A DNA stretch of 64,000 bases from Myxococcota bacterium (lineage in GTDB: Bacteria; Myxococcota_A; Bradymonadia; UBA7976; UBA1532), in the NCBI GenBank assembly GCA_963169045.1, contig CAUJDF010000069.1:62001-126000 (forward strand), in the 5' to 3' direction. The position numbers and the translations under genes are program-made. Below, piece by piece: positions 16,067 through 22,490 of the stretch (positions within the stretch are counted from its first letter, which is position 1; the number at the start of each line of letters is the position of its first letter). The notes under the pieces were generated by a model. It ran no database searches, was not told the DNA's origin, and was given only the letters and a program-made list of their open reading frames with translations.

Positions 16067-16636
16067 ATGCGCGACCACGCCGCCGACGATCCCGCCCTCG
16101 AGACGACCCCCGCGGTGGCGCGGGCGCTCGTCGACAACCACCGCCAGTTCCTGGCCTTCGTCGAGCGCCGCGTCGGCGACCGCGCGCTGGCCGAGGACAT
16201 CCTGCAGGACGCCTTCGTCCGCTCTCTCGACAAGCTCGGGACGCTGCGCGACGACGAGTCGGCGGTCGCCTGGTTCTATCGCAGCCTGCGCAACGCGGTG
16301 ATCGACCACTTCCGCCGCCGCGGCACGGCGCAGCGCGGCCTCTCGGCCTTCGCCGAGGAGCTCCTGGCCGCGGAGGCGCCCGGCGACGAGGTGCGTGGCG
16401 TCGTGTGCCGCTGCGTCGCGCAGCTCGCCGCCACGCTCAAGCCCGAGTACGCCGACGCCCTCCGGCGGATCGAGCTCGACGGCGTCGCGGTGAAGGACTT
16501 CGCCGACGAGGCGGGCATCACGAGCAACAACGCCGCGGTGCGGGTCTTCCGCGCCCGCGACGCGCTCCGCAAGCAGGTGGCGCGCGCGTGCGGCACCTGC
16601 GCCACCCACGGGTGCGTCGACTGCACCTGTCGCTGA
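16067..16636 (+). CDS. corE: CorE-like ECF sigma factor with C-terminal Cys-rich domain
   Basis: 189 residues. Sigma region 2 (about 20-85, VGDRALAEDILQDAF) and region 4 (about 125-170, with IELDGVAVKDFADEAG) are separated by a linker carrying CRC (Cys114/Cys116). The tail CGTCATHGCVDCTCR holds five Cys (175, 178, 183, 186, 188) and one His. This layout matches the CorE/ECF44 group described in Myxococcus xanthus, where the Cys-rich tail binds copper directly and switches the sigma factor without an anti-sigma factor. No anti-sigma gene is adjacent. It follows copA by three bases. Confidence 0.88.
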   Translation: MRDHAADDPALETTPAVARALVDNHRQFLAFVERRVGDRALAEDILQDAFVRSLDKLGTLRDDESAVAWFYRSLRNAVIDHFRRRGTAQRGLSAFAEELLAAEAPGDEVRGVVCRCVAQLAATLKPEYADALRRIELDGVAVKDFADEAGITSNNAAVRVFRARDALRKQVARACGTCATHGCVDCTCR

Positions 16637-16658: not shown

Positions 16659-17789
16659 GTGGGTCGTCTGCGGCGAAAGTTCAGCGCTCCGGTCGTTCAG
16701 GTCGATAATCACGGCACCGTGGCGGATTCTGCATCGCTGAGAGCCTCGGAGGGGGACGACGCCGCGCTCGCGCCGGCGCCGGCCGACACGCAGGCGCCAG
16801 GCGCCGCGCCCCAAGACGCGCGGCGGCGCTGGCGCGCGCTGGCGGCGACCGTCCTGGCCGCCGTGGCGACGATCGCGCTCGCCGACCTCGCCCTGCAGCG
16901 CGTGCGGCCGCTCTTCCCGCCCGTGCGCCACGTGCACGAGGGCGTCGCCGACCTCGCGGCGGGCGATCCGACGGTCCTCGTGCTCGGCTCCAGCCACGCG
17001 CGATCCTTCGACGCGGTGAAGGCGGCGGTGGAGTCGAGGACGTCGGGGCGCCAGCGCCTCGTGACGGTGCCCGTCGAGATGGGCGGCTTCACCTCGTATC
17101 TCTGGGTGCTCGAGCACCGCGTCGCCCCGCTGCTCGTCGCGCGGCGCGCGAGCCTGCGGCACCTCATGCTCGTCACCACGTTCTACGACGCCTGCTCGAC
17201 CGAGGTGAGCCGCAGCGACCTGAACGTGCCCGCCCGCGCCTGGACGATCGGCCACTACCTGCAGGACGTGCGCGAAGGCGGCCTGAGCGACTTCAACCGC
17301 AACTACGTCCGCGAGCGCGCGAAAGGCCTGGCGCCGTGGTCGGTCCTCGTCCAGGACCGCGGCGCCGGCAACATCGCCCACGCGCTCCGCCAGCTCGTGC
17401 AGCCGGAGACGAAGGGCGAGATCGTCGCCGAGGCGCGCGCCATCCTCGAGGCGCAGCACGCCGGCTGCCAGGACGAGCGCGAGCTGGTCTCCCTCGCGCG
17501 CATCGCCGACTTCGCCGCCGCCCGGGGGCTCGCGCTCACCGTCGTGCTCTTTCCGCTCGTGCCCGACATCGTCAGCGAGCAGGCGCGGCGCACCACGCTC
17601 GCCTGGTACGACGAGCGCGCCCGCAACCTCTCGATCGAGAAGGACTTTCGCGTCGTCGACCTCACGACGTCGACGCCGCTCGTCCTCGGGGACTTCGCGC
17701 CGGACCTCGACCACGTCACCGCCGCGGGCAACGCCCGGTTCGCGGCCTGGGTGCTCGACCACGACCTGCGCTGGCTGCTCGATCCATGA
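16659..17789 (+). CDS. SGNH/DltD-like membrane-anchored protein
   Basis: Up to 376 residues. One N-terminal membrane segment (about 60-80) precedes a domain with VLVLGSSHARSF (Ser111/112, block I) and a C-terminal DLDH (Asp349, His352), which match the Ser and DxxH catalytic elements of SGNH/DltD/AlgX-type O-acyl enzymes. The start is uncertain: GTG at 16659 (22 bases after corE) or the in-frame GTG at 16719 near GATAATC. The MBOAT gene overlaps its stop (ATGA). Together with MBOAT and an acyl carrier protein this suggests acyl transfer to an exported polymer. Confidence 0.72.
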   Translation: MGRLRRKFSAPVVQVDNHGTVADSASLRASEGDDAALAPAPADTQAPGAAPQDARRRWRALAATVLAAVATIALADLALQRVRPLFPPVRHVHEGVADLAAGDPTVLVLGSSHARSFDAVKAAVESRTSGRQRLVTVPVEMGGFTSYLWVLEHRVAPLLVARRASLRHLMLVTTFYDACSTEVSRSDLNVPARAWTIGHYLQDVREGGLSDFNRNYVRERAKGLAPWSVLVQDRGAGNIAHALRQLVQPETKGEIVAEARAILEAQHAGCQDERELVSLARIADFAAARGLALTVVLFPLVPDIVSEQARRTTLAWYDERARNLSIEKDFRVVDLTTSTPLVLGDFAPDLDHVTAAGNARFAAWVLDHDLRWLLDP

Positions 17790-19276
17790 CCTTCGAGTCG
17801 CTCGAGTTCGCCTTCTTCCTGCCGGTGGTGTTCGTCGTCTACTGGGCGCTGCCGGCGCGCGCCGCGCTCCAGAACGCCTTCCTCGTGCTCGCCGGCGTGG
17901 CCTTCTACGCCTCGTGGAGCTTCGGCCTGCTGTGGGTCTTCGCGCTCGCGGCCACCGTCGACTACGCGATCGCCCGCTACCTCGAGGCGGTGCGGCCCCC
18001 GCCGGGTGCGGCCGACGCCGCGGCGAAGCGCCGCATGCGCCTCGCGCTCGGCGCGAGCGTCGTCTACAACGTCGGCCAGCTCTGCTGGTTCAAGTACGTC
18101 GGCTTCTTCGCCGACTCGGCGAACGTCTTGATGCACCGGCTCGGCCTGCCGGCGGACCTGCCGGTCCTGCGGCTGGCGCTGCCCATCGGCCTGTCGTACT
18201 GGACGCTCCAGAAGCTCGCCTACGTGCTCGACGTGTACTACGGGCGCGTCCCGGCCTGCCGCTCACCGCTCACGTTCGCCGCCTTCGTCACGTTCTTTCC
18301 GCAGCTCGTCGCCGGCCCCATCGTGCGCGGCAGCGAGATGCTCCCCCAGCTCGAGCGGCCCCGCCGCCTCGATCCGGACCGCCTCGCCGCGGGCGGCGGC
18401 GCCTTCCTGCTGGGCTTCGCGATGAAGGCGTTCGTGGCCGACTTCCTCGGCCAGAAGGTGGTCGATCCGGTCTTCGCCGATCCCGCCGTCTGGTCCGCCG
18501 CGGGCCACTGGATGGGCCTGTTCGGCTACGCGGCGCAGGTCTTCTGCGACTTCGCCGGCTACAGCCTCATGGCCATCGGCGTGGGGCGCCTGTTCGGGTT
18601 CGAGCTGCCGGTGAACTTCGACTACCCGTTCTTCAGCACCAACCTCATGGAGTTCTGGCGGCGCTGGCACATCACGCTGAACCGCTGGTTGTTCGACCAT
18701 CTCTACGCGCCCCTCGTGGCGGGGAACGGCTGGTTCAAGGGCCGCTTCGACAGCGGCCTGTTGCTCGTCTTCGGCGTGTCGGGGCTGTGGCACGGCGCCA
18801 CGTGGGGCTTCGTGCTCTGGGGGGCGATGCACGGCGTGGGACTGGTCGTCCAGCGGCGCTTCGGCGACTACTACAAGACGCTGTGCCGCAAGGACCGCGT
18901 GTGGGTGCAGCGGCGCAAGTCCACGGGCTACAAGGCCGTCGCCTGGCTGCTCACGATCGGCTTCTTCGTGCTGACGCTGGTGCCGTTCCGGGCCGGTGGG
19001 CTCGACGCGACGCTCTCGTTCGCGCGGGGGCTCTTCACCAGCCCGGGGACGCTGCTGCCGGCGGTCGATTCGGCCATGTCGCTGCACAACCTGGCCTGGT
19101 CGGTGCTGTTCCTGGCCGGCTACCACGCTTTCGGGACGACCGCCGGCCGCCGCTGGCGCGCGCAGCTCGCCGCGTTGCCGCCGGTGGCCCGCGGGGTGGC
19201 CTACGGGGCGATGATCGTGTTCCTCTTCGTCTTCATGCCGACCTCCGGGTCGACCTTCGTCTACGCGAACTTCTAG
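17786..19276 (+). CDS. MBOAT-family O-acyltransferase (AlgI/DltB-like)
   Basis: 496 residues, multi-pass. MBOAT landmarks are PIGLSYWTLQKLAYVLDVYYG, FFPQLVAGPIVR, FCDFAGYSLMAIG, LPVNFDYPFFSTN, EFWRRWHITLNRW and the catalytic-His motif SGLWHGATW (His336). Proteins of this type move acyl groups from a cytoplasmic donor to a periplasmic acceptor with an SGNH partner (AlgI-AlgX, DltB-DltD). The upstream SGNH gene and downstream acyl carrier protein supply partner and probable donor. Confidence 0.92.
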   Translation: MTFESLEFAFFLPVVFVVYWALPARAALQNAFLVLAGVAFYASWSFGLLWVFALAATVDYAIARYLEAVRPPPGAADAAAKRRMRLALGASVVYNVGQLCWFKYVGFFADSANVLMHRLGLPADLPVLRLALPIGLSYWTLQKLAYVLDVYYGRVPACRSPLTFAAFVTFFPQLVAGPIVRGSEMLPQLERPRRLDPDRLAAGGGAFLLGFAMKAFVADFLGQKVVDPVFADPAVWSAAGHWMGLFGYAAQVFCDFAGYSLMAIGVGRLFGFELPVNFDYPFFSTNLMEFWRRWHITLNRWLFDHLYAPLVAGNGWFKGRFDSGLLLVFGVSGLWHGATWGFVLWGAMHGVGLVVQRRFGDYYKTLCRKDRVWVQRRKSTGYKAVAWLLTIGFFVLTLVPFRAGGLDATLSFARGLFTSPGTLLPAVDSAMSLHNLAWSVLFLAGYHAFGTTAGRRWRAQLAALPPVARGVAYGAMIVFLFVFMPTSGSTFVYANF

Positions 19277-19287
19277 AGGGAGGCCCG

Positions 19288-19554
19288 ATGCAGCAGGGGG
19301 AGCTCCGCCAGCTGATCGTCGACTGGCTCGACGACAACTACCACTTCGGCGACGCCGCCTCGTTGATCCGCGACGACGCGATGTCGTTCCTCGAGAACGG
19401 CGTGCTCGACAGCCTGGGCTTCTTGCAGCTCGTCCTCTTCCTCGAAGGGCGGCTGGGCCTGCGCATCGACCGCCAGAAGCTCACCCGCGAGAACTTCGAC
19501 GGCATGGGCAAGATTCTGCGCTACGTCACCACGCACCCCGACTGGCGGGGCTGA
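19288..19554 (+). CDS. Acyl carrier protein (DltC-like)
   Basis: 88 residues, acidic and helical. DSLGFLQLVLF contains Ser42 as the phosphopantetheine attachment site. GAGGGAGG lies five bases before the ATG. Its place directly behind an MBOAT gene recalls DltC, which hands D-alanine to DltB; however, no DltA-like adenylating ligase is present in the window, so what is loaded onto it is unknown. Confidence 0.88.
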   Translation: MQQGELRQLIVDWLDDNYHFGDAASLIRDDAMSFLENGVLDSLGFLQLVLFLEGRLGLRIDRQKLTRENFDGMGKILRYVTTHPDWRG

Positions 19555-19827: not shown

Positions 19828-21192
19828 GTGCGCCCACTCATCGAGCCCCGCCCGTTCCGGCCGTACCACCAGCGCGATCTCGACAAGATCCCCCAGTTCC
19901 AGAAGCTGTCGCCCGAACGCCGTCTCGCCGTGCGCGCCGTCGCGTCCGTCCTGCCGTTCCGCGTCAACGCCTATGTCGTCGACGAGCTGATCGACTGGGA
20001 CCGCGTCCCCGACGATCCCATGTTCCAGCTGACCTTCCCGCAGCCCGACATGCTCGAGCCCGATGATCTCGAGCGCATGGTCGCCCTGATCGCCCGCGAC
20101 GCGCCGCAGGCGGAGATCGCGGCGGCGGCGCGCGCGATCCAGGGGCGCCTCAACCCGCACCCGGCCGGGCAGCGCGACCTCAACGTCCCGCGGCTCGACG
20201 GCATGACGCTGCCGGGCATGCAGCACAAGTACCGGGAGACCGTGCTGTTCTTCCCGCAGCAGGGACAGACGTGCCACAGCTACTGCACGTACTGCTTCCG
20301 CTGGGCGCAGTTCGTGGGGCTCGAGGAGCTCAAGTTCGCGAGCAGCCAGGCGGAGATGCTCGTCGAGTACCTGCGGCGCCACCCCTGCGTGACGGACGTG
20401 CTGTTCACCGGGGGCGATCCGCTGGTGATGCGCACCGAGGTCCTCGCGCGCTACGTCGAGCCGCTGCTGGCGCCCGAGCTCGAGCACGTGTCGCACATCC
20501 GCCTCGGCACGAAGGCGCCGGCCTACTGGCCGCATCGGTTCGTCACCGATCGCGACGCCGACGACCTCTTGCGGCTGTTCGAGCGCGTCGTCGCGGCGGG
20601 GCGCCACCTCGCGGTCATGGCCCACTTCAGCCACCCGGTCGAGCTGTCGACGCCCGCCGCCGAGGAGGCCATCCGCCGCATCCGCTCGACGGGCGCCGAG
20701 GTGCGCTGCCAGGCGCCGCTCATCCGCCACGTCAACGACGATCCGCGCGCGTGGGCCGAGATGTGGCGGCGGCAGGTCCGGCTCGGCGCCATCCCGTACT
20801 ACTTCTTCGTCGAGCGCGACACGGGCCCGAAGCGGTACTTCGAGGTGCCGCTGGCGCGCGGCCTCGAGATCTACCAGCAGGCCTACCGGCAGGTGTCCGG
20901 CCTCTGCCGGACGGTGCGCGGCCCGTCGATGTCGGCCACGCCGGGCAAGGTGCAGGTCGTCGGCACCACGTTCCTCGGTTCGCAGGAGGTCTTCGTCCTG
21001 CGCTTCCTGCAGGCGCGCGACCCGGCGTGGGTGAACCGGCTGTTCTTCGCGAAGATGGACCGCCGCGCGAGCTGGCTCGACGACCTGCGGCCCTTCGGCG
21101 CCCCGGAGTTCTTCTTCGAGCGCCGCATGCGCGAGCTGAAGGCCGGCGCGCGCTCGCCGGCGATGTGGGCCGGCGAGGCGGAGGTGGCGTGA
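19828..21192 (+). CDS. KamA-family radical SAM aminomutase-like protein
   Basis: 454 residues. CHSYCTYCF (Cys149, Cys153, Cys156) binds the 4Fe-4S cluster and SAM, and LFTGGDPLV follows as in lysine 2,3-aminomutase. A probable PLP lysine is Lys374 in MSATPGKVQVVG; clostridial lysine 2,3-aminomutase has DAPGGGGK there, so the Asp that reads the substrate amine is not evident and the substrate may not be lysine. The C-terminus (after about 385) has an unusual basic, aromatic tail (DDLRPFGAPEFFFERRMREL). An aminotransferase gene begins within its stop codon. Confidence 0.85.
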   Translation: MRPLIEPRPFRPYHQRDLDKIPQFQKLSPERRLAVRAVASVLPFRVNAYVVDELIDWDRVPDDPMFQLTFPQPDMLEPDDLERMVALIARDAPQAEIAAAARAIQGRLNPHPAGQRDLNVPRLDGMTLPGMQHKYRETVLFFPQQGQTCHSYCTYCFRWAQFVGLEELKFASSQAEMLVEYLRRHPCVTDVLFTGGDPLVMRTEVLARYVEPLLAPELEHVSHIRLGTKAPAYWPHRFVTDRDADDLLRLFERVVAAGRHLAVMAHFSHPVELSTPAAEEAIRRIRSTGAEVRCQAPLIRHVNDDPRAWAEMWRRQVRLGAIPYYFFVERDTGPKRYFEVPLARGLEIYQQAYRQVSGLCRTVRGPSMSATPGKVQVVGTTFLGSQEVFVLRFLQARDPAWVNRLFFAKMDRRASWLDDLRPFGAPEFFFERRMRELKAGARSPAMWAGEAEVA

Positions 21193-22490
21193 TGGGCGGG
21201 CGCGGCCCCGAGGAGAACCTGCACCCGATCGTGCGCGGGCTCCGCCCGTCGGCGACGCTCGCGATCAACGAGCGCTGCCGCGAGCTCGAGCGCGACGGCC
21301 GCCAGGTGTTCCGCCTCGGCCTCGGGCAGTCGCCGTTCCCGGTGCCGCGCACGGTGGTCGAGGCGCTGCGCGCCCACGCGTCGCAGAAGGACTACCTGCC
21401 GGTGCGCGGCCTCGAGGCGCTGCGCGACGCGGTGGCCCGGTACCACGCGCGGCGACAGGGCATCCCGTGCACCGGCGACGACGTGATCATCGGGCCCGGC
21501 TCGAAGGAGCTGATGTTCCTGCTGCAGCTCGCCTACGACGGCGAGCTGGTCATCCCGACGCCGTCGTGGGTGTCGTACGAGCCCCAGGCGCGCATCCTCG
21601 GGCGGCCGGTGCGGTGGGTGCCGACGCGCGCCGAGGAGGGCTGGCGCCTGCTGCCCGGCGCGCTCGAGCGGCTGTGCGCGGCGGAGCCCGGACGGCCGCG
21701 CATCCTCATCCTGAACTACCCGGCCAATCCGCACGGCGGGTCGTATACGTCCGACGAGCTCGCGGCGCTGGCGGAGACGGCGCGGCGGCTGCGCATCGTC
21801 GTGCTCTCCGACGAGATCTACGGGGAGCTGCACTACGAGGGCGCGCACCAGTCGATCGCGCGGCACTACCCCGAGGGCACGATCGTCAGCGGCGGCCTCA
21901 GCAAGTGGTGCGGCGCCGGCGGGTGGCGCCTCGGGACGTTCACCTTCCCGCGCTCGATGCGCTGGCTGCTGCAAGCGATGGCGGCGGTGGCCAGCGAGAC
22001 GTACACCTCGACGAGCGCGCCCATCCAGTTCGCGGCGGTGCGCGCGTTCGAGGGCGGCACCGAGATCGAGCGCTACCTGTGGCGCAGCCGGCGCGTGCTC
22101 GGCGCGCTCGCGAGGGCGCTGACGGCGCGGCTGCGCGCGGCGGGCGCGCGGGTGGTCGATCCGGCGGGCGCCTTCTACCTGTTCCCGGACTTCGGCGACC
22201 TGCGCGAGCCGCTGCGGGCCCGCGGCATCGAGGGCAGCGCGGCGCTGTGCGAGCGCCTGCTCGAGGAGACGGGCGTGGCGATGCTCCCGGGCCGCGACTT
22301 CGGGCGCCCCCCCGAGGAGCTGACGGCGCGCATCGCCTTCGTCGACTTCGACGGGGCGCGCGCGCTCGAGGCGCTGGCGGCCGCGCCGACCGACTTCGTC
22401 CCCGAGGCCGCCTTCGTCGAGTCGCTGGCCCCGAACCTCTTCCGCGCCTTCGACCGCCTCGCCGCGTGGCTCGGCGCCGTCGACCGGTGA
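21192..22490 (+). CDS. Class I/II aminotransferase partnered with the KamA-like enzyme
   Basis: 432 residues, fold type I PLP enzyme. GLGQSPFPVP, ILNYPANPHGG, LSDEIYGELHYEG and SGGLSKWCGAGGWRLG (Lys238 as PLP lysine) are visible. It is distinct in sequence from the aminotransferase at 1.9-3.0 kb. It starts one base inside the stop of the radical SAM gene (TGATG), so the two are translationally coupled and probably act in sequence, for example isomerising an amino acid to a beta-amino acid and then transaminating, or the reverse. The extra C-terminal 40 residues (FVPEAAFVESLAPNLFRAF) are unusual. Confidence 0.86.
   Translation: MGGRGPEENLHPIVRGLRPSATLAINERCRELERDGRQVFRLGLGQSPFPVPRTVVEALRAHASQKDYLPVRGLEALRDAVARYHARRQGIPCTGDDVIIGPGSKELMFLLQLAYDGELVIPTPSWVSYEPQARILGRPVRWVPTRAEEGWRLLPGALERLCAAEPGRPRILILNYPANPHGGSYTSDELAALAETARRLRIVVLSDEIYGELHYEGAHQSIARHYPEGTIVSGGLSKWCGAGGWRLGTFTFPRSMRWLLQAMAAVASETYTSTSAPIQFAAVRAFEGGTEIERYLWRSRRVLGALARALTARLRAAGARVVDPAGAFYLFPDFGDLREPLRARGIEGSAALCERLLEETGVAMLPGRDFGRPPEELTARIAFVDFDGARALEALAAAPTDFVPEAAFVESLAPNLFRAFDRLAAWLGAVDR

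Follow-up and report, generated by a model that had tools for sequence, protein, structure and literature searches.

The window, a 64,000-nucleotide stretch of DNA (G000:C69:62001-126000), comes from a Myxococcota genome of 9.0 Mb in 109 contigs that is 95% complete. Three plus-strand open reading frames (ORFs) encoding an SGNH protein, an MBOAT, and an acyl carrier protein (ACP) were found at the coordinates below, each separated from the next by an overlap or by 11 bases. These genes, their neighbors, and one gene on another contig are as follows:

16067..16636, plus strand: ECF sigma factor, SigZ-like, listed as context; its end is 22 bases upstream of the SGNH start as called
16659..17789 (start could be 16719), plus strand: SGNH acyltransferase/esterase-fold protein (ORF, model, fold match, and catalytic motifs)
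17786..19276, plus strand: MBOAT (Pfam and PDB matches, model, and FxYxxF motif)
19288..19554, plus strand: dedicated acyl carrier protein of 88 amino acids with Ser42 (weak DltC and peptidyl-carrier matches; carrier in 18 of 377 genomes)
19828-21192, plus strand: KamA-like radical SAM gene, 274 bases downstream of the ACP gene
21192-22490, plus strand: aminotransferase gene, downstream of the KamA-like gene
G000:C24:59645-61543, on a different contig from the window: cassette-type ligase of the acetoacetyl-CoA synthetase family

Rfam gave no match in the window. The start codon of the SGNH gene is uncertain (GTG at 16659 or GTG at 16719); as called, the gene encodes 376 amino acids with one N-terminal membrane helix, and its end overlaps the MBOAT start in an ATGA (17786 versus 17789). 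The protein matched neither Pfam nor NCBIfam. Its AlphaFold model (pLDDT of 84) has an SGNH fold (best Foldseek E of 2e-5) and resembles both PatB (Foldseek E of 8e-4) and DltD (1.5e-3), with VIA-align Z scores of about 14-15. A GSSH motif and a DxxH motif (D349..H352) were conserved in all 15 aligned SGNH sequences. The SGNH gene adjoins the MBOAT gene in the window and in 16 of 18 genomes; at the level of the individual locus, no SGNH gene lies beside the MBOAT gene in G106 or G288.

The MBOAT (496 amino acids) carries His295, His336 within a WHG motif, and a C-terminal FVYANF that includes Tyr493. It matched Pfam PF03062 (E of 1e-29). DltB was its best match in the PDB (E of 7e-31), and DltB proteins were its only solved relatives at an E of 0.01; DltB was likewise the top match of the predicted model (Foldseek E of 1e-12). 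The FxYxxF motif was present in all 18 full-length cassette MBOATs (from 17 genomes and L057). Features of a PatA/AlgI-type MBOAT found here are a catalytic His with a C-terminal FxYxxF (His336 and FVYANF, the pattern also seen in the 18 cassette MBOATs) and, by prediction, a pair of additional C-terminal helices that precede the motif. The model places helices at 430-448, 452-462, and 466-483 and gives the motif itself low confidence. Five MBOATs are encoded in the source genome in total. G081 and G108 each have a second SGNH-MBOAT pair from this clade (L238:8729-11034 and L239:8180-10728); these second-copy MBOATs have no carrier or ligase gene beside them and end in PIYGRF rather than FxYxxF.

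The carrier ORF is directly preceded by the stretch GAGGGAGG. Its product had no Pfam match, and its matches to DltC and to peptidyl carriers were weak. Ser42 lies within GVLDSLGF, and this serine was invariant in 19 of 19 aligned carriers; the preceding Asp was replaced in 4 of the 19 (by K, K, T, or S, in L092, L093, L168, and L169). The carrier adjoining the window MBOAT is the only one of its kind in the source genome. The initial annotation had called an SGNH protein, an MBOAT, and an ACP with Ser42, and the ORFs, the Pfam and PDB matches, the SGNH-fold model, and the serine in GVLDSLGF all bear this out. A genome-wide search for a 4'-phosphopantetheinyl transferase, which it had proposed, returned a single AcpS-family member on contig C29.

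No adenylating ligase was found in the 64-kb window by tblastn with acetoacetyl-CoA-synthetase-type and FadD-like queries (best E of 0.18), and a ligase remnant within the window was rejected. The claim that DltA is missing held across the source genome, where the best score against TIGR01734 was 91.9 bits for a cut-off of 559.85. The top DltA-like match, on contig C93, was rejected as FadD-like.

We then read the cassette in related genomes, with gene starts taken from our own codon-usage gene caller. Among 57 relatives, MBOATs of at least about 50% identity occurred in five other genomes, and a sixth (G011) has a fragment at a contig edge; three named contigs also encoded MBOATs at this level, and a scan of named contigs yielded 37 loci, 3 of which had the carrier gene by tblastn (L055, L056, and L057). 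In G053, G056, L057, and L056, the product of the gene directly 3' of the carrier gene is a ligase about 650 residues long; three of these four ligases were scored, and all exceeded the acetoacetate-CoA ligase cut-off. The carrier (at least 56% identity) and the ligase were found in the identical 7 of the 57 genomes and in no others.

This pattern extended to 377 genomes, which we searched with profiles (A1, A2, and A4) that include sequences of the window or its relatives, which match by construction. The carrier profile gave 18 genomes at 112 bits or more and the rest at 50 or less. The MBOAT profile gave 17 genomes at 573 bits or more (the next scored 389), all among the 18 with the carrier; in the remaining carrier genome, G011, the MBOAT copy is broken at a contig edge. 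The ligase profile gave 18 genomes at 808 bits or more and the others at 735 or less; these 18 were 17 of the carrier genomes together with G294. The ligase of G330 is cut by a contig end and scored 508 bits. When the eight seed genomes were left out, carrier and MBOAT agreed in 10 of 10 genomes, and the ligase agreed in 9 of 10 (the tenth being G330), with G294 in addition. The 18 carrier genomes represent seven families, and shared descent inflates the co-occurrence; hypergeometric figures ignore this kinship.

The source genome is the exception among the 18 carrier genomes: in the other 17, the ligase gene starts within about 25 bp of the carrier gene. The cassette was laid out in four ways:

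All four genes contiguous: 9 genomes (G053, G056, G065, G081, G088, G108, G175, G212, and G220)
MBOAT-carrier-ligase: 2 genomes (G106 and G288)
SGNH-MBOAT apart from carrier-ligase: 6 genomes (G002, G005, G009, G011, G224, and G330)
SGNH-MBOAT-carrier, with the ligase apart: 1 genome (that of the window)

The association thus holds where the genes are apart, as in the six genomes in which SGNH-MBOAT lies away from ACP-ligase, and these counts leave the position of the ligase as the sole oddity of the window. Next to the carrier-ligase pair of G005 are a gene resembling beta-lysine N-acetyltransferase (just below the cut-off) and a histone-deacetylase-family gene (L132:6162-8220 and L133:3276-4829); genes like these two are also found in G011.

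The source genome does encode a ligase of this family, on contig C24. It is 58% identical to a cassette ligase and scored 627.3 bits against TIGR01217, the acetoacetate-CoA ligase equivalog (cut-off of 520.9); the closest solved structure is an acetoacetyl-CoA synthetase from Streptomyces (4wd1). The start of its gene shares 4 bases with the 3' end of a gene for a serine/threonine protein kinase (L106:8028-11071). A maximum-likelihood tree (32 rows) had a branch with support of 100/100 that separated 18 cassette ligases, including that of C24, from 12 other acetoacetyl-CoA synthetases; this is an unrooted split rather than a rooted clade. The 12 are those with loci among about 80 other ligases, and the tree includes the L057 ligase and omits the truncated one of G330. 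The ligase of G294 (L235:582-3797) falls on the cassette side; it continues in frame into about 410 additional residues, and that genome lacks the carrier. The cassette ligases and the other acetoacetyl-CoA synthetases have GWMMW and SGGTD in common, in what we take to be the acyl-pocket region. The differences between the two groups include GTSP-a-YLQ versus GTSAKFID and RIGPAEIY versus RIGTaEIY, the latter being presumably the hinge that meets the thiol acceptor. Among the 57 relatives, ligases of this family were detected at an E of 1e-80 in only the 7 carrier genomes, which argues that the family is not a housekeeping gene in this group. That the C24 ligase is a housekeeping enzyme was rejected on this distribution, with 50 of the 57 relatives lacking the family, and on its placement in the tree. 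The putative link of this ligase to the window cassette is one of orthology and co-occurrence. The initial annotation had described a reduced cassette without a ligase and had offered fatty acid synthesis or an unlinked ligase as the acyl source. The first description fails because 17 of 18 genomes have the ligase gene next to the carrier gene and the source genome has an orthologue; of the two sources, the unlinked ligase is the one favored, with an orthologue on another contig that groups with the cassette ligases.

Collectively, these data lead us to propose, with a probability of roughly three in four, that the three window genes supply the export and carrier functions of an envelope acylation system with four genes (SGNH-MBOAT-ACP-ligase), the ligase gene being on another contig. 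The computed evidence for this proposal is that the four genes are associated and co-occur almost exactly, that the ligases form a separate clade, that the catalytic motifs are intact, and that the MBOAT carries FxYxxF at its C terminus. Counting against it are the two cassettes with no SGNH gene next to the MBOAT gene (G106 and G288), the cassette-type ligase of G294 in a genome that lacks the carrier, the four carriers in which the Asp is replaced, and the part of the co-occurrence that is due to shared descent. In such a system, the substrate adenylated by the ligase would be a small acid of the 3-oxo (or 3-hydroxy) type, with acetoacetate the most likely, and the ligase would load it onto the phosphopantetheine on Ser42 of the ACP, for which the AcpS-family transferase encoded on C29 is the likely activator. 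Acetoacetate is a candidate because of the family to which the ligase belongs, and the acyl group is likely to be acetoacetyl or a close 3-oxo or 3-hydroxy acid, as judged from sequence. The MBOAT, with His336, would transfer the acyl group from the carrier to its own Tyr493 in FVYANF; the acyl-Tyr would pass it to the Ser of the GSSH motif in the periplasmic SGNH protein, and this protein would esterify an envelope polymer, perhaps a polysaccharide. A 2025 study (PMC12148441) describes PatA as auto-acetylating the Tyr of its C-terminal FxYxxF, with the acetylated motif peptide feeding PatB. Together with the FVYANF seen here, this chemistry suggests the path from carrier Ser42 to Tyr493, to the SGNH Ser, and on to the polymer.

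In another reading, the ligase could make a short acyl-CoA that serves the MBOAT as direct donor, in the manner of PatA and acetyl-CoA, with the carrier serving another task. This ligase family normally yields CoA thioesters, and MBOATs with a Pat-type C terminus such as this one use acyl-CoA, according to PMC12148441. Against this, the carrier gene neighbors the ligase gene in 17 of 18 genomes, no genome has the carrier but lacks the MBOAT clade, and the cassette ligases depart from the other synthetases at fixed sites (RIGPAEIY rather than RIGTaEIY); we therefore consider direct use of acyl-CoA unlikely. It is less probable still that the carrier is charged from fatty acid synthesis without any ligase and that the C24 enzyme is a housekeeping acetoacetyl-CoA synthetase. 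The window does lack a ligase, and the C24 protein does exceed the acetoacetate-CoA ligase cut-off, but the ligase adjoins the carrier in 17 of 18 genomes, the C24 ligase groups with the cassette ligases and not with the 12 other synthetases of the phylum, and the family is absent at an E of 1e-80 from 50 of 57 relatives.

A split canonical Dlt system adding D-alanine, the case that the initial annotation had set against its own reading, has very little left in its favor. The MBOAT is nearest to DltB in the PDB and the carrier is weakly DltC-like, but the scores fell well below the cut-offs not only for DltA (91.9 of 559.85 bits) but also for DltB (TIGR04091, 167.8 of 375 bits) and DltC (NF003464, 27.8 of 68 bits; TIGR01688, 21.9 of 52.35 bits), the shuttle motif is on the MBOAT itself rather than on DltX, and the ligase comes from a different family.

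Flanking genes were also considered as parts of the system. The ECF sigma factor gene is probably not one of them; it was rejected because the other loci read have no such gene next to the cassette. A KamA-like gene as a fifth part was rejected as well, since a relative occurs in only 3 of 57 genomes. We give hardly any credence to a beta-amino acid acyl group produced by this enzyme: the KamA-like and aminotransferase genes begin 274 bases downstream on the same strand and a beta-lysine N-acetyltransferase-like gene lies near the ligase in G005, but the three KamA relatives are split between 2 of the 7 genomes with the cassette and 1 without it, none adjoins the cassette in the other loci read, and the KamA-like gene has a strong ribosome-binding site of its own.

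Returning to the proposed four-gene acylation system, its neighbors elsewhere bear on the acceptor. Polysaccharide genes (flippase and deacetylase) surround the set in G288, and both pieces of the split set in G330 are near hexapeptide-transferase and glycosyltransferase genes. These neighborhoods suggest that the acceptor may be a polysaccharide. In G106, the MBOAT-carrier-ligase set is overlapped at its start by a PKS/NRPS gene that includes a class-III aminotransferase domain (L056:1996-9757, on the same contig as L165), and no SGNH gene lies between the two; with this neighbor, other acceptors are possible.

Comparison with known systems places the set between two of them. It resembles Dlt (DltA, DltB, DltC, DltD, and DltX) in four roles, those of ligase, carrier, MBOAT, and SGNH protein, whereas the shuttle motif is on DltX in Dlt and at the end of the MBOAT (FVYANF) here, and the Dlt ligase is DltA whereas this one belongs to the acetoacetyl-CoA synthetase family. 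Compared with acetoacetyl-CoA synthetase 4wd1, a member of the same family, the cassette ligases form a separate group and adjoin a carrier gene. The window MBOAT resembles those of PatA/PatB and AlgI/AlgJ in its C-terminal FxYxxF and its SGNH partner, going by the motif description in PMC12148441; by the same account, the PatA and AlgI pathways use acyl-CoA without a carrier, whereas here all 18 genomes have a carrier and its ligase as part of the set. A Dlt-like function in a Gram-negative bacterium, that of the Bordetella dra locus, adds D-alanine as described in PMC4448142. The system looks like a hybrid, in which a Pat-type export pair is combined with a dedicated carrier as in Dlt, this carrier being charged by a relative of acetoacetate ligases.

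A search of open-licence papers, in which absence is weak evidence, returned no relevant paper on a set of this kind, and the papers listed for acetoacetylated polysaccharide, 3-hydroxybutyrate substituents, or acetoacetyl O-antigen were not to the point, again a weak absence. The set combines Pat and Dlt features in what appears to be a new form of MBOAT-SGNH acylation. PMC12148441 divides these pathways into Dlt, with a carrier and a separate DltX, and the others, which use acyl-CoA and no carrier. The window set combines a carrier with a built-in motif, so this dividing line may not hold, and the text of that study covered here does not name the ligase family. Tentatively, and at somewhat less than even odds, the set may represent a third kind of MBOAT-SGNH acylation, in which a Pat-type MBOAT with its own shuttle Tyr receives the acyl group from a dedicated carrier charged by a relative of acetoacetate ligases, and a surface polymer is decorated with a reactive ketone in the form of an acetoacetyl (or similar 3-oxo) ester. 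The work also indicates that a gene missing from a cassette can be traced through the position of its orthologue in related genomes. For MBOAT-SGNH systems, the finding suggests a route for acyl groups beyond acetyl and D-alanyl.
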